From an uncultured Collinsella sp. (GTDB taxonomy: Bacteria; Actinomycetota; Coriobacteriia; Coriobacteriales; Coriobacteriaceae), in NCBI GenBank assembly GCA_934647195.1, contig CAKUFD010000008.1:61445-125444 (forward strand): a stretch of DNA of 64,000 nt, in the 5' to 3' direction. How positions within the stretch are numbered: position 1 is the first letter of the stretch; each line of letters opens with the position of its first letter. Shown here one piece after another: positions 15,642 through 56,255 of this stretch. The translations under genes and the position numbers were made by a program. Below the pieces are notes generated by a model. The model was not told the DNA's origin and made no database searches. It saw only the letters and a program-made list of their open reading frames with translations.

Positions 15642-16388
15642 CTAAAGAAGCGCCCCTGCCACGATCAAGGCGATGCAGACGACAAACATCGCGATATCGC
15701 AGGCGGCAAAGGGATAGCGCTTGTAGCTGCTTTCGCGCGTGCGCAGGTAAAAGCCACGTTGCTCAGCGGCGAGTGCCGTTGCGTCGGTCTTGCCCACACT
15801 CGAGATAAGCAGCGGGGCGCACAGCGGCAGCATGAGCTTGAGCTTCTTGATGGGGTTTTTGGTGTCGTACTCCACGCCGCGCGCCGTCTGCGCTTCGATG
15901 ATCGCGTTCATCTCCTGGCTGAACACGGGGACAAAGCGCAGCGCTGTGGTGAAGGTGAAGGCGTAACGATAGGGGACGTGCAGCTTCTCGACGCAGGCGT
16001 TTGCGAGGTCATTGAGCTTGGTGACCATGAGCATCAAGACGAGCGGCAGCGCCACGCCCAAAAGGCGGAGGCACGCTTTGGAGCCCGTGATAAGGCCTGT
16101 GTCGGTCACAAAGGCGAAAAGCGTCTTGCCTTCTCGCATGAAAGCGGTTTGGAGCACGAGCATGATCAAGGCGATGGGGATGAGTAGACGCAGTAGCTTG
16201 AGCAGGCGATCGGCTACGCCTGCATAGGCGCCCAAGGCGAGCGTGAGCGCGAGCAGGCCGATGAGCATCGCGTAGCTTTGAGCCAAAAAGGTGGAGAGGA
16301 TGATCGCCGCGGCGAGGGCGAGCTTTGCTATGGGGTTGAGCTTGTGCAGCAGCGTTGTGCCGGGCACATAATCGATGACGTTAATCAC
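15642..16388 (-). CDS. ecfT: ECF transporter transmembrane component EcfT
   Basis: A 248-residue membrane scaffold of an energy-coupling-factor importer, linking the ATPases to the substrate-binding S component. It has four to five hydrophobic segments, the N-terminal HKLNPIAKL segment common in EcfT, and the two coupling-helix Ala-Arg-Gly type motifs expected near AQTARGVEYD and AEQRGFYLRTR. The GTG at 16388 is chosen because GAGGAG lies 10 nt upstream and the family N-terminus begins there; it overlaps the ecfA stop (16381-16383) by a few bases, implying translational coupling. It is the last gene of the operon behind the Trp attenuator. Confidence 0.9.
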   Translation of the reverse strand: MINVIDYVPGTTLLHKLNPIAKLALAAAIILSTFLAQSYAMLIGLLALTLALGAYAGVADRLLKLLRLLIPIALIMLVLQTAFMREGKTLFAFVTDTGLITGSKACLRLLGVALPLVLMLMVTKLNDLANACVEKLHVPYRYAFTFTTALRFVPVFSQEMNAIIEAQTARGVEYDTKNPIKKLKLMLPLCAPLLISSVGKTDATALAAEQRGFYLRTRESSYKRYPFAACDIAMFVVCIALIVAGALL

Positions 16389-18123
16389 GGCGGACCATCT
16401 CCTCGGTGATGCGAACGATATCCGAAACCTCGCTGACGCCCCCGAAGGCAGGCGAGATGGATTGCGAAAGGCGGCGCGAAAGCTCAATGACCTGCGGCGG
16501 TTCGATCGATGCCGCATGCATGAGCTCGGGCTGGGCAAACAGGTCGCGTGCAGGGCCCGATGCCAGGATACGCCCATCTGCCATGACGGCGATGCGCTCG
16601 GCGAAGTCGGAGACCACCTCCATGTCGTGGCAGACCATGATCACGGCACAGCCCGCCTCGGCCATCTGCTTTACCGTTTCCATTACGGTCATGCACTCGC
16701 GGTAGTCGAGTCCGCTCGTGGGCTCGTCGAGCACAATCACGCGCGGCTCCACCACAAGGACGCTCGCGAGCGCAACCATCTGCCGCTGTCCACGCGAGAG
16801 CGAAAACGGCGCTTCGTCGAGTGGAAGGCTAAATCGCTGTGCCGTCTCGCGTGCTTTTTCGTGCGCGCGGGCGGAATCCATTCCGTGAAGCTCGAGGCCA
16901 AAGGCGATCTCGTCCTCCACGGTCTCCTTGCAGATTTGACGATCGGGGTTTTGGAAGAGGGTCGCGCACGAACGGGCGATGACGCTTGTGGGGGTGGTTT
17001 TGGTGTCGTCATCCGCAACGCGTACGCTGCCTGCATCAGGCTTGAGCAGACCCGTGAGGAGCTTGGTGAACGTGGTCTTGCCTGCACCGTTTTGACCTAC
17101 AAGCCCTATGAGCTCGCCGGGGCGCACCTCGAGGGTGAGGTCGTGCACCGCGGCTCCGCCCAAGGGGTAGGCAAAATCAACATGCTCGAATGCGACTACG
17201 GGCTCTTGAGCTGTCGTGGCGCGGGGCGCATGGGGCGAGGGGGCGGCGATACCTCCCGTATCGCGAGAGACGTTTCCTACCGTACGCTTGATAAGCGCTT
17301 CGGCTTCGTCGACGGTAAGGCAGGGTGACGCCTGGGTGCAGATGTTCTTGCGTGCGAGGCTGTTTGAGATGCGAGCCACGCGAGGGCTGTCAACGCCGAT
17401 TCGCTGGAGTTCTTCGGAATATGAAAAGACCTCGTGCGGCGTTCCCTCAAGGGCGATCTTTCCGTTATCGAGTACGACGACGCGGTTGCAAAACGTGGAG
17501 AGCAGCGCCACCTTCTGCTCGATCACCACGACGGTTACGTTTTGCTCGCGGTTGATCTTTGCGAGCGTATCGAAAACGAGCAGTGAACTTGCCGGGTCAA
17601 GAGCGGCGGTGGGCTCGTCGAGCACGAGCACGCGGGGCCGCAGCGCCATGATTGCGGCGATGGCGACCTTTTGCTTCTGACCGCCCGAGAGCGTGGCGAT
17701 CTCGCGGTCGCGCAGGTCGGTAATGCCAACGGTCTGCAACGCGTCCGAGAGGCGCTGCTCGATCTTGTCGTGCGGCACGCCAAAGTTCTCCAGGCCAAAG
17801 AGCAGCTCGTCTTCTACGACGGATGCGACCATCTGGGTATCGATATCCTGCAGGACGCTTCCAACGATGCGCGAGATGTCGGTGAGCGTGACCTCGCAGG
17901 TATCCTTGCCGGCAACATGCACGGCTCCGTAGAGCGTCCCGCCAAAGTGGTGGGGAATCGCTCCGGAAAGGCATGCAGCGAGGGTTGACTTGCCTGCTCC
18001 CGAAGGGCCGATGATGCCGAGGAAGTCGCCTTCGCCTATCGCGAGCGAAATATGATTCAGTGCGGGCTCACGCGTCTCGCGATACGAGAACGAGACGTCC
18101 TCAATGTCGATAATCGGATTCAT
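16381..18123 (-). CDS. ECF transporter ATPase, fused EcfA-EcfA' double ATPase
   Basis: A 580-residue protein containing two complete ABC ATPase domains. Domain 1 (~1-240) has Walker A GIIGPSGAGKSTLAACL, signature TLSGGQKQKVAIAA and Walker B VLVLDEPTAALDPA. Domain 2 (~310-560) has GLVGQNGAGKTTFTKLL, signature SLSRGQRQMVALAS (Arg for the second Gly of LSGGQ) and VIVLDEPTSGLDYRE. It powers uptake by the adjacent EcfT plus S component. Fused ATPases occur in dedicated (group I-like) ECF systems. AAAGG precedes ATG 18123. It is encoded between the S-like proteins and ecfT. Confidence 0.95.
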   Translation of the reverse strand: MNPIIDIEDVSFSYRETREPALNHISLAIGEGDFLGIIGPSGAGKSTLAACLSGAIPHHFGGTLYGAVHVAGKDTCEVTLTDISRIVGSVLQDIDTQMVASVVEDELLFGLENFGVPHDKIEQRLSDALQTVGITDLRDREIATLSGGQKQKVAIAAIMALRPRVLVLDEPTAALDPASSLLVFDTLAKINREQNVTVVVIEQKVALLSTFCNRVVVLDNGKIALEGTPHEVFSYSEELQRIGVDSPRVARISNSLARKNICTQASPCLTVDEAEALIKRTVGNVSRDTGGIAAPSPHAPRATTAQEPVVAFEHVDFAYPLGGAAVHDLTLEVRPGELIGLVGQNGAGKTTFTKLLTGLLKPDAGSVRVADDDTKTTPTSVIARSCATLFQNPDRQICKETVEDEIAFGLELHGMDSARAHEKARETAQRFSLPLDEAPFSLSRGQRQMVALASVLVVEPRVIVLDEPTSGLDYRECMTVMETVKQMAEAGCAVIMVCHDMEVVSDFAERIAVMADGRILASGPARDLFAQPELMHAASIEPPQVIELSRRLSQSISPAFGGVSEVSDIVRITEEMVRRD

Positions 18124-18272: not shown

Positions 18273-18818
18273 TTATTTTTTAATTACCTTGGCAAGCGGG
18301 AAGAACAGCGCCTGAACCACGACGGCGTTGAAGGTTGCGGTGCCCAGCACCAGCGGAACCTTGGGCAGAGCCGCCTCCAGGCCAAAGCCTGCCATGAGCG
18401 TTCCTGCGATGGCGAACAAGGCGCCGGAGACAAGGGTGGTAACGAACGTCGCGATGAGCGGGTTCGCCTTGGTGCCACCGATGCCGCTTTTGACGAGGGC
18501 GGCCATCGTAAGGGCGCCGGCTGCCTCGGTCAAGAAGTTGAGGCCGGGAATAGAGGTGGTGAACTGGATTACGGCGGCGGAGACCAGGCCGTAGATGATC
18601 GCTTGGGCAAGGTTTGCGCGGGTGAGCGCAATGGCGAGGGCATAGGCAGCGATGATGAACTGGGGCTTGATGCCGGTCATGGCCAGTGCGTTACCTGCGG
18701 TCATGTTGAGGATGAAGCCTGCGGCAAGAAGGATGGCGAGCAGAACGAGGGAGGAGATGTCGACAAGACCGTGAGAAGAGGTTTCGGCAGAGATGGTACG
18801 AGCGGTGGGGTTGGACAT
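18273..18818 (-). CDS. ECF-type S component-like membrane protein 2 (candidate tryptophan/aromatic specificity)
   Basis: A 181-residue membrane protein with about six hydrophobic segments, the size and style of an ECF substrate-specificity component. Its first membrane segment, LVLLAILLAAGFILNMTAG, is almost the same as that of the preceding gene, so the two are tandem paralogues; later blocks (IATFVTTLVSG, AVIQFTTSIPGLNF) are also shared. AAAGGA lies 6 nt before ATG 18818. It is followed by the fused ATPase and EcfT. The upstream Trp-codon attenuator points to tryptophan or a precursor as substrate. This is inference; the fold call rests on size, hydrophobicity and neighbours. Confidence 0.8.
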   Translation of the reverse strand: MSNPTARTISAETSSHGLVDISSLVLLAILLAAGFILNMTAGNALAMTGIKPQFIIAAYALAIALTRANLAQAIIYGLVSAAVIQFTTSIPGLNFLTEAAGALTMAALVKSGIGGTKANPLIATFVTTLVSGALFAIAGTLMAGFGLEAALPKVPLVLGTATFNAVVVQALFFPLAKVIKK

Positions 18819-18890
18819 AGAGGGTCCTTTCGGCGATGAAGGCGATGGGATGTCGAACTGTTGGGCTGCCCGTTTGGCGGGCGCGAAGGG

Positions 18891-19457
18891 TTAGGAAAGC
18901 TTGAGGGCCTTCTTGATGGGCAGGTAGAGGGCCGCGACAAGGATGCCGTTGAAGACGGCCGTGGCGGCGACGACGGGAAGCATGGCGGCGGCGAGTTCTG
19001 CCACAAGGCCGATCATCGCCATCTTGATAACCATGAAGATGCAGCCGGAGACAAGGGTGGTCACGAATGTGGCGATGGCCGCTACGGCGGGAGAGATGCT
19101 GCCGCGGCGCGATGCGGCAGCGACGATCGCTGCCATGAGCATGGCGGCGATTCCCTCGGCGGCGAAATCAATGAACGGCGAGGTGGTGGTGATCTGGATG
19201 ACGGCAGCGGAGATGAGGCCGATGACGAGCGCCTGTCCGAGGTTGGGACGCACGATGAGAATCGTGAGGCAGAAGGCGGAGATGATGAACTCGGGGCTGA
19301 TGGCGCCGCCCGAGATGCTCGAGATCGCCTTGCCGACGGTGAAGTTGAGGATAAAGCCGGCAGCCAAGAGAACAGCCAGAAGAACAAGGGCGCGAACGTC
19401 GAGGGTGCCGTGGTCGGTGGTGGAAACGGTGCGGGGCTGGGTTGCTGCGTTGGACAT
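18891..19457 (-). CDS. ECF-type S component-like membrane protein 1 (candidate tryptophan/aromatic specificity)
   Basis: A 188-residue membrane protein with about six hydrophobic segments, first structural gene after the Trp leader and attenuator terminator (19551-19693). The block LVLLAVLLAAGFILNFTVG and the IATFVTTLVSGCIF segment match its downstream neighbour. The paralogues could form alternative or paired S components sharing one EcfT/ATPase. The start is ATG 19457, with AAAGG 9 nt upstream; a TTG nine bases further out is poorly placed. Transcription is expected only when the upstream terminator is bypassed. Confidence 0.82.
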   Translation of the reverse strand: MSNAATQPRTVSTTDHGTLDVRALVLLAVLLAAGFILNFTVGKAISSISGGAISPEFIISAFCLTILIVRPNLGQALVIGLISAAVIQITTTSPFIDFAAEGIAAMLMAAIVAAASRRGSISPAVAAIATFVTTLVSGCIFMVIKMAMIGLVAELAAAMLPVVAATAVFNGILVAALYLPIKKALKLS

Positions 19458-19550: not shown

Positions 19551-19584
19551 TAAAGAAAAAGGCCTCCGGTCGAAACCGGAGGCC
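19551..19584 (-). terminator. Attenuator terminator of the Trp-leader ECF operon
   Basis: On the minus strand GGCCTCCGGT and ACCGGAGGCC form a perfect 10-bp stem closed by a TTCG loop, followed by TTTTTCTTTA. It lies after the Trp leader stop codon and 94 bp before the first S-component gene. The segment at 19567-19573 is also complementary to 19628-19634 in the leader end, which would disrupt the stem. Confidence 0.9.
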
Positions 19585-19621
19585 TCATCATTTGCCTGGA
19601 GCTATTTTAGGCGTGAGGGAC

Positions 19622-19693
19622 TCACAGTCGACCGACCGTATACGCATCACGCCACCACCAGTTCATGACAGAGTTGTTGGAGAAGTTGGTCAT
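19622..19693 (-). CDS. Tryptophan-rich leader peptide (attenuation peptide)
   Basis: A 23-residue open frame (ATG at 19693, TGA at 19622-19624) with a strong ribosome site AAAGGAG 8 nt upstream. It contains three consecutive Trp codons (NWWWRDAY; TGG codons at 19652-19660). It is followed by a strong intrinsic terminator and then the ECF transporter genes. This is the arrangement of a ribosome-mediated tryptophan attenuator: Trp-starved ribosomes stall at the TGG run, leaving CGGTCGA (19634-19628) free to pair with TCGACCG in the terminator loop and 3' arm (19573-19567). When Trp is plentiful the ribosome covers it and the terminator forms. The coding frame is read directly; the pairing model is inference. 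Confidence 0.88.
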   Translation of the reverse strand: MTNFSNNSVMNWWWRDAYTVGRL

Positions 19694-19739
19694 TCTGGTG
19701 GCTCCTTTCGGGAAAGCGAAGTTGTTTAGGTTGCGCCGC

Positions 19740-19767
19740 ACTATAGCACAGCAAGAGGGCGGCGCAA
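19740..19767 (-). promoter_or_regulatory. Candidate promoter of the Trp-leader ECF operon
   Basis: On the minus strand TTGCGC (19767-19762) and TATAGT (19745-19740) are separated by 16 bp, giving a leader of roughly 40 nt before the leader-peptide ATG. Confidence 0.55.
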
Positions 19768-19828: not shown

Positions 19829-20755
19829 CTAGTTGTTGTCGGGATTGAGTTTGGAGAAGTCGTCGACGATGATATCCAGGCATTTTGGCAATGCGCGTGC
19901 GCCAAAGACGCCCGAGGGATTGGGAATGAGCTCGCCGTCGTACTCCATGCCCAGCGAAGGCGAGCAGGTGATTTTTGCCTCTTTTGCCTGAAGCATCTTG
20001 AACTGCGGGCGCCCAAGCCCCTTGCCTGCAGGGTCAAAAACGCCTGCGAGTAGGGTGGGGAGCAGCTGCACCGTCGCCACCGGTTCGATGACGGCGATAT
20101 CGATGAGGCCGTCGTTCATGCGGCAATCGGGGAACAGATTGATGTCGTTTTGAATCACTGCCGTGTTGCCCACCATGCACCCGATGCCATCGAACTCATC
20201 GACTTCACCGTCGTGTTCGATTGTGAAGTGCGCTACCTGAGGGTTAGGGGTGGCAAGTGCGGAGAGCGCGTAGGCGATTTCGCCGATCTCGTTTTTGTTG
20301 GGAGCAGCCTTTTCCATAATGGCGGCATCAAAGCCAGACCCAGCGATGATGATAAAGCCGTGGCGCTGTTCGTTTCCCTCAGCATCATTCCAAAAGAGCT
20401 CGCCCATGTCGACGGGAACGGTGCGTCCACGGCGACAGGCCTTGGCGAGAGCGGCGGCCTCTGGGGCATTGCCGATGTTGTTGAAGAACAGGCATGCTGT
20501 GCCCGAAGGGAAGATGAGGGTGGGGACATGCGTGTCTCGCAAGCAGTCGAGCACGTTGGAGACGGTGCCATCGCCGCCCGAAACCACCACACGATCAAAC
20601 GCGGTGACATCGCGCGTGGCATCTTGTGGCTCCATGCCCTTACCGATAAAGCGCATGGTGATTTCGTCTCCTGCTTGAGCGAGCGCATGGGCAAAGGCGT
20701 AGATCTCGTCGGAGCGGGTGCCCGAGGCGGGATTGTGGATGATAAGGCAACGCAT
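19829..20755 (-). CDS. Diacylglycerol/lipid kinase family protein
   Basis: A 308-residue soluble lipid kinase of the DAGK/YegS/DgkB class, which phosphorylates diacylglycerol or related lipids at the membrane face. Seen are the N-terminal LIIHNPASGTRSDE nucleotide-site segment (~2-15), the family hallmark VVVSGGDGTVSNVLDCL (~65-81), the FPSGTACLFFNNIG (PxGTxND-like) loop, and the C-terminal lobe with MEYDGELIP. The loop reads GTACLFFN rather than GTGNDFAR, a noticeable variation. The start at 20755 matches the family N-terminus; an open extension further out overlaps the divergent rnd gene. It is divergent from rnd. Confidence 0.9.
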   Translation of the reverse strand: MRCLIIHNPASGTRSDEIYAFAHALAQAGDEITMRFIGKGMEPQDATRDVTAFDRVVVSGGDGTVSNVLDCLRDTHVPTLIFPSGTACLFFNNIGNAPEAAALAKACRRGRTVPVDMGELFWNDAEGNEQRHGFIIIAGSGFDAAIMEKAAPNKNEIGEIAYALSALATPNPQVAHFTIEHDGEVDEFDGIGCMVGNTAVIQNDINLFPDCRMNDGLIDIAVIEPVATVQLLPTLLAGVFDPAGKGLGRPQFKMLQAKEAKITCSPSLGMEYDGELIPNPSGVFGARALPKCLDIIVDDFSKLNPDNN

Positions 20756-55961: not shown

Positions 55962-56255
55962 TGAGGCTCCTTTTCTGATAGCACTCCTGCAGAATGTCTG
56001 TGCAGACAGTCTTGCGGGTGTTTCCCGCAAGCCCACCTGGCCTTCCGTGCCCGGTCGACCAAGTTCGGCGGGGTTGCCTCGGTGCGGGGTCATTGCCTGC
56101 CGGCTCGCCCGCGCGTCATCGCGCCCGCTCCTCTATCGAGTTTTGCCACAGTACCATGAATATATTGGCGAAACAAGGCGAAAAGCAGCAACGTCATTGT
56201 TTCGTAATACTCGAGCGAAAGAGCCTCTTGCGGCATGAGGGCAAGAAGCGTGCCC

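Follow-up and report, generated by a model that had tools for sequence, protein, structure and literature searches.

A putative tryptophan-codon attenuator upstream of an ECF transporter operon in Collinsella and its relatives among Coriobacteriia

On the minus strand of the window (the whole 64,000-nt stretch of Collinsella DNA that was analysed), a YegS-like lipid kinase gene (19829-20755) is followed by a leader region and by an ECF operon with the gene order S1-S2-EcfAA'-EcfT. The leader region contains a very short gene with three consecutive Trp codons, which raises the question of whether a tryptophan sensor controls the transporter and what the transporter imports. The first-pass annotation had read the locus as a tryptophan attenuator acting on an uptake system, and this reading was supported by our sequence comparisons. 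We consider it highly likely that the locus is a classical Trp-codon attenuator which controls an ECF-type tryptophan importer by antitermination under starvation. This assignment is based on anatomy, conservation, compensated changes and gene context; ribosome stalling and read-through are our inference, as is the choice of tryptophan over a close analogue or precursor as the substrate.

Direct reading of the minus strand confirmed the coordinates of the 72-nt gene, its ribosome site and its tandem Trp codons, and a TTCG-capped terminator with a U-tract was found before the ECF genes, as had been claimed. The features, in the order of transcription, are as follows:

19770-19762 and 19748-19740, minus strand: putative promoter, with a weak -35-like TTGTTG/TTGCGC and an extended -10 TGcTATAGT, respectively (direct reading)
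19708-19702, minus strand: Shine-Dalgarno sequence of the leader peptide, AAAGGAG, with 8 nt between it and the ATG
19693-19622, minus strand: predicted leader peptide gene, MTNFSNNSVMNWWWRDAYTVGRL-stop, from ATG 19693 to TGA 19622 (72 nt, 23 codons)
19660-19652, minus strand: Trp codons TGG TGG TGG of the leader (direct reading)
19653-19647, minus strand: region 1, GGCGUGA, predicted 5' arm of a protector stem, overlapping the third Trp codon
19637-19609, minus strand: predicted antiterminator 5' strand, covering the final codons of the leader (GGUCGGUCGA) with its stop codon, and region 2 (folding)
19616-19610, minus strand: region 2, UCACGCC, predicted to serve both as 3' arm of the protector stem and as the inner segment of the 5' strand of the antiterminator (folding, swap test)
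19597-19568, minus strand: predicted antiterminator 3' strand, comprising the spacer, the terminator 5' arm and the loop through GACC (folding, swap tests)
19586-19559, minus strand: intrinsic terminator hairpin with a UUCG loop, 12 bp; U-tract at 19560-19552
18891-19457, minus strand: S1, ECF S component of 188 aa (Pfam TrpP), ATG at 19457
18273-18818, minus strand: S2, second S component of 181 aa, a paralogue of S1 (46% identity)
16381-18123, minus strand: EcfAA', fused ATPase of 580 aa (TIGR04520, 455 bits)
15642-16388, minus strand: EcfT, transmembrane component (PF02361 CbiQ, 94 bits with query 15642-16385; TIGR02454 below its cut-off)

The terminator reads GGCCUCCGGU-UUCG-ACCGGAGGCC (19584-19561; 12 bp when the outer A-U and G-U pairs are counted), followed by UUUUUCUUU. 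The kinase gene, which lies on the same strand, ends at 19829, so the terminator could belong to that gene and the small ORF be incidental, a reading that we regard as hardly credible: the -10-like TATAGT lies between the kinase gene and the leader and recurs no more than 165 nt 5' of the Trp run in 28 of the 38 leaders examined, and the ORF, the stem and the terminator are conserved as a unit, which is found before other genes too. An inverted repeat (GTTGCGCCGC...GCGGCGCAAC, 19767-19732, minus strand) flanks the -10 and is not conserved in the relatives compared. Purine-rich strings like AAAGGAG were seen by eye before most leader start codons. Adjoining the ribosome site of the leader, a GCCACCAG-like sequence (19701-19694, minus strand) pairs with the Trp-codon run (19662-19651) in the MFE fold, and this pairing may mask the leader start when the RNA is untranslated; a GCGCCA/UGGCGC pairing looks possible in Olsenella-type leaders.

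Loss of the Trp codons or of the stems from homologous loci had been named beforehand as the outcome that would speak against an attenuator. The relatives examined have kept the run of Trp codons, the terminator and the pairing that had been claimed, and most of them also the stem between regions 1 and 2 (1:2 stem). A search of genome contigs with S1 gave 82 loci, the best 80 of which were taken; 78 of these 80 have a Trp-run ORF no more than 600 nt upstream of their S1 match. The two others were L068, with 54 bp of upstream DNA only, and L077, a truncated S1 match with no leader within the 600 nt upstream examined. Together with that of the window, 79 leaders were parsed; every one has a terminator, and in every one GGUC stands precisely 12 nt before the point where the stop codon of the leader ends (79/79 each). 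The leader RNA of the window folded better than 200 of 200 dinucleotide shuffles (z -3.3). An Rfam scan at the locus returned no family, Trp_leader included, at gathering score.

A covariance model built from 26 dereplicated leaders had matches in 143 of the 396 genomes sampled from the same class. Fourteen genomes were removed, seven in which the listed matches span just the 3' half of the model and seven with weak matches (E 3e-4 to 1e-3); the 129 leader genomes referred to below are the matches kept, part of which were read individually. Four of the removed genomes (L153-L156) and a second partial match in G311 (L152) showed no Trp leader on inspection. In a phylum-wide draw, 20 of 296 genomes matched the model; G531, the sole new full-length match (a weak one), contained no Trp run, and five other new phylum genomes were partial matches.

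When diverged leaders were added, the set comprised 115 elements (94 distinct). WWW was present in 112 of the 115, with WW or WAW in the other three, and GGUC followed the first Trp codon at 27 nt in 106, while the leader peptide was variable outside WWWR. The codons GGT and CGA made up 9.4% of Gly codons and 5.9% of Arg codons, respectively, in 94 long ORFs beside the 26 representative leaders, yet all 79 parsed leaders carry GGUC at the end of the peptide gene. In five of seven NSS-type leaders (see below) the stop codon lay 9 nt before GGUC, yet GGUC was still 27 nt from the first Trp codon; a stop position that shifts under a fixed GGUC spacing suggests that the RNA, not the peptide, is conserved. 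The conserved GR/GQ end of the peptide is likely caused by the antiterminator 5' strand, which runs through the last leader codons.

These data bear on the alternative of a TnaC-like arrest peptide, in which free tryptophan would stall the ribosome through exit-tunnel contacts and would induce the operon. A short Trp-containing leader before a transporter does resemble the E. coli tnaC-tnaAB arrangement, where a leader peptide also controls a tryptophan permease. However, the peptide varies outside WWWR, its GR/GQ end is explained by the RNA, and tandem Trp codons, an intrinsic terminator and competing pairings are present, whereas TnaC has a single Trp, depends on Rho and answers to free tryptophan through arrest of the peptide. 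We therefore judge an arrest peptide very unlikely.

The alternative RNA structures were then evaluated by folding. The earlier claim that 19634-19628 (CGGUCGA) is complementary to 19573-19567 (UCGACCG) was accurate, the two being exact reverse complements; the 7-bp antiterminator proposed from it stood as a pairing, but it forms just the closing segment of a longer predicted antiterminator. When the stretch that would stay uncovered by a ribosome halted at WWW was folded as far as the GACC of the terminator loop (19644-19568), it gave one long hairpin of -24.2 kcal/mol that pairs 19637-19609 with 19597-19568; CGGUCGA:UCGACCG closes this helix, and a tandem GGUCGGUC gives two possible registers in the window. 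The protector 1:2 hairpin (GGCGUGA:UCACGCC) had -18.9 kcal/mol in the window fold and the terminator -23.3 kcal/mol (fold of 19586-19553). At equilibrium, the full stalled-state RNA was still predicted to favour the terminator, so antitermination would have to be kinetic, as in known attenuators. A kissing loop between GGUC and the terminator loop was dropped as a candidate, since these bases already make up the helix that closes the nested antiterminator.

In the proposed mechanism, a ribosome supplied with ample Trp-tRNA would pass WWW, reach the stop codon (19624-19622) and cover the antiterminator 5' strand; the 12-bp terminator would then form and transcription would end before S1. With scarce Trp-tRNA, the ribosome would halt on WWW, covering region 1 and leaving GGUCGGUCGACUGUGAGUCCCUCACGCC free to pair with the emerging spacer, the terminator 5' arm and the loop to GACC, which would block the terminator and allow S1-S2-AA'-T to be transcribed. 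The stop codon lies inside the antiterminator 5' strand, and thus a ribosome at the stop would hide this strand and one stalled on WWW would not. If the leader were not translated at all, the 1:2 protector stem would form and termination would be the default.

In folds that extended as far as the terminator loop, GACC (or GGCC) paired into the leader end in 26 of 26 representatives, while the interior of the antiterminator varied and its inner part was different in several (e.g., L003, L048, L064). RNAalifold on MAFFT alignments recovered just five antiterminator pairs, and each leader was therefore tested individually for its pairings. Among the 26 closer leaders, the two strands of the antiterminator paired far better than after shuffling (mean -18.6 compared to -12.5), but the swap test, in which partner strands were permuted, was not significant (752 of 5000 permutations were as good; with the coding part alone, 1639 of 5000). 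From the wider set, 37 leaders of less than 80% identity were subjected to the same test; the true partners were matched by 0 of 10,000 permutations for the apical pairing, 3 of 10,000 for the wide antiterminator and 0 of 10,000 for the 1:2 stem, values that ignore the relatedness of the leaders. For the apical pairing alone, 17 of the 37 beat 95% of their own shuffles, and the 1:2 stem was weaker than -5.5 kcal/mol in five (L056, L118, L123, L135, L146). Fourteen of the 94 distinct elements depart from GGUC/GACC, of which 12 still pair at the changed sites, many via G-U. Pairing was kept by changes on both strands in L140, L141 and L142 (GGGUUA:UAAUCC; GGAC:GUCC); L134b still pairs, in another register and with one A bulged out, and L132 has a mismatch. 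The predicted mutually exclusive antiterminator thus appears to be conserved by compensation in the wider set, the effect not being significant in the closer set. With tandem codons, a terminator, an exclusive antiterminator and a protector stem, the leader is very probably a classical amino-acid leader-peptide attenuator.

Judged from its genes, the operon appears complete as an ECF transporter, with an S component, two ABC ATPase domains and a T component. S1 matched the tryptophan transporter family TrpP of Pfam (PF17099) with 30.4 bits over residues 21-185 of 188 (cut-off 27.2), while S2 reached 20.6 bits, below the cut-off. The S components, which had been called otherwise unassigned, are therefore not wholly so, and for S1 an assignment to TrpP by homology already existed. 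Overall, 18 of the 27 members of alignment A3 (26 S1 sequences including that of the window, plus S2) matched TrpP with E up to 1e-3. S1 is like TrpP in that it matches over nearly the whole length, and unlike its members in that the similarity is weak (30 bits) and the operon is shared with ECF ATPase and T components. The C. glutamicum 'TrpP' was set aside as a precedent, since it is described as an SdpI-family protein in the available text of PMC11995493.

An AlphaFold2 model of S1 (pLDDT 82.7) was compared to the PDB with Foldseek, and the 12 best matches were ECF S components (probability 0.95-1.00, TM 0.45-0.60) with weak E values of about 0.04-0.4 (best 0.037). One of the matches, 4huq_S, is an S component. 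A sequence search of the PDB with S1 found no relative (best E 0.17). As in ECF transporters with matching folds (RibU, ThiT), S1 has the S fold and an AxxxA in helix 1, and EcfAA' and EcfT are encoded in the operon; unlike in usual ECF transporters, whose substrates are a vitamin or a metal, two S components are adjacent and the substrate is probably an amino acid. The AxxxA is formed by the invariant A28 and A32 and corresponds to a motif described for S components in the part of PMC11109136 available to us. The two paralogous S components (18273-19457, minus strand) share one EcfAA'T module, and many diverged relatives have a single S match.

Related leaders were also found before other genes. 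Forty covariance-model matches, mostly divergent, were fetched; apart from the leaderless L152-L156, the other 35 loci carried 36 leaders (L134 has two). Of the 36, 26 precede an ECF operon or an S1 homologue, seven the gene of an NSS-family transporter (L121, L125, L128, L129, L131, L145, L134a) and three that of a TrpB-like PLP enzyme (L140, L141, L142). One NSS protein (PF00209, 168 bits) and one TrpB-like protein (NF009057, 572 bits) were assigned by family search and the others from their aligned beginnings. The closest solved relative of the NSS protein was chain 4us3_A. This chain is the tryptophan-binding MhsT. In L140, the TrpB-like gene is followed by an S-ATPase fusion ORF with 34-41% identity to S1 or S2 (~155 residues) and 53% to EcfA. 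An S1 match was also present in 122 of the 129 leader genomes, the other seven being six NSS cases and G306, whose leader lies at a contig end. Genome G079 carries two Trp leaders about 1.65 kb apart (L134), one on an NSS transporter and one on a diverged ECF operon.

The distribution of tryptophan synthesis was assessed through indole-glycerol-phosphate synthase (IGPS; PF00218), which was found in 130 of the 396 genomes, the control search being positive in 14 of 14 known genomes. IGPS was present in 9 of the 129 leader genomes vs 121 of the 267 others (Fisher p 4e-16, a value that ignores relatedness and genome completeness), and in 23 of the 202 genomes with an S1 match. That carriers of the leader mostly lack the enzyme fits tryptophan as the probable cargo of the importer. 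In the nine genomes with both, leader and IGPS were on different contigs in seven and more than 120 kb apart in two (G230, G302). No trp operon under this leader was seen in these nine genomes, a search in which the ECF-leader-based model could miss one.

Could the attenuator be real and sense Trp-tRNA while the ECF cargo is a tryptophan-related compound, such as indole, anthranilate or an aromatic vitamin precursor? Regulation by tryptophan status leaves the substrate unfixed, the two S components may differ in specificity, and the S-ATPase fusion of L140 follows a TrpB-like gene; TrpB-like enzymes can use indole. Against this, S1 lies above the Pfam TrpP cut-off, six genomes that lack an S1 match have the leader in front of an NSS-family transporter, and the 120 of 129 leader genomes without IGPS would need tryptophan itself unless they salvage indole. 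Considering both sides, we find a related compound improbable as the cargo and retain tryptophan.

A second kind of tryptophan sensor was found on diverged ECF operons. S1 matches occurred in 202 of the 396 class genomes, although weak ones may be other S components. Eighty of the 202 had no leader match, and nine such loci were inspected: seven had a T-box-like leader and two had neither sensor, the 71 genomes outside these nine loci including many with weak S1 matches. In the seven loci (L157-L163), S is 40-47% identical, EcfA-EcfA'-T matches follow downstream (in L158 as far as the contig reaches), and GGUGGCACCGCAGG with a terminator is located upstream of S. The T-box family RF00230 scored 73.8 bits in L160 (E 4e-16) and 58.3 bits in L157 (E 5e-12), both below the gathering score of 93, and a gathering-threshold Rfam scan of these loci gave no T-box. 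The specifier of the seven ECF leaders, placed by comparison with other T-boxes of these genomes, reads AAUGG(U/A)UC, i.e. UGG for Trp. At the same place, the T-box of a trpE-like gene has AAAUGGACC and those of three pheS-like genes have GAUUC (both gene names were given on inspection of the proteins); this comparison draws on 11 T-box matches in three genomes, all below cut-off, eight of which were used, with L169, L174 and L175 outside the pattern. Within the T-box of L159 lies an ORF with two non-adjacent Trp codons, which we attribute to chance. In the window region, no T-box sequence or stem I was matched, T-box-like leaders being seen in diverged relatives only.

The remaining two loci, L164 (G181) and L165 (G173), showed no Trp leader or T-box, and L164 had no Rfam match. 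Their S1 homologues, 48% identical, are located downstream of a ribosomal-protein-L27-like gene (by eye), with a GACC-containing terminator just upstream; both genomes carry IGPS.

Overall, the link of the transporter to tryptophan, which the first-pass annotation had drawn from the Trp codons, was strengthened by the TrpP similarity, by the leaders on NSS and TrpB-like genes and by the UGG specifier of the T-box-like leaders. We think it probable that many Coriobacteriia without IGPS share a tryptophan uptake and salvage regulon (ECF-TrpP, NSS-family transporter, TrpB-like enzyme) under one previously undescribed leader-peptide attenuator, with the ECF system as tryptophan importer. Some lineages would have replaced the sensor by a T-box specific for tryptophan, and others the transporter by an unrelated one. 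If so, an ECF system would import a proteinogenic amino acid, tryptophan, and a directly testable substrate would be at hand for an ECF transporter with S1 matches in about half of the class genomes (202/396, weak ones maybe other S components). Sensors (leader peptide, T-box) would swap on one target, and targets (ECF, NSS transporters) under one sensor. The group includes common gut bacteria, and competition for tryptophan in the gut is of wide interest, with 120 of the 129 leader genomes lacking IGPS.

T-boxes bind tRNA directly; unlike tryptophan T-boxes, the window has a predicted translated leader. A T-box on a tryptophan uptake system has been described for S. suis trpX (PMC9382623, available text), and on the seven diverged ECF operons T-box-like leaders with UGG take the place of the leader seen in the window. 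Trp-codon attenuators were reported on trp operons and a trpS in Actinobacteria by Seliverstov et al. 2005 (PMC1262725). According to the available part of that paper, the Corynebacterium and Streptomyces trp attenuators have, like the window, a short leader, two or three UGG, a GC-rich terminator with a U-tract and a competing antiterminator. In contrast to those systems, which control biosynthesis operons and trpS, the target here would be uptake, and the predicted antiterminator 5' strand includes the last codons and the stop of the leader. Coriobacteriia are absent from the genome list in the available part of PMC1262725, and the text available from PMC9413887, on histidine leaders, holds nothing on this locus. 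Among the matches listed for open-licence PMC text, none described a tryptophan leader-peptide attenuator or T-box on an ECF transporter. As no prior description was found, the lineage, the uptake regulon as target and the antiterminator using the leader's last codons and stop look new, while the mechanism is classical.

Elsewhere in the window, a lysine riboswitch (RF00168, 70.6 bits) at 55971-56143 (minus strand) heads a run of lysA-, dapA- and dapB-like genes, named from reading the proteins, which is an ordinary arrangement.
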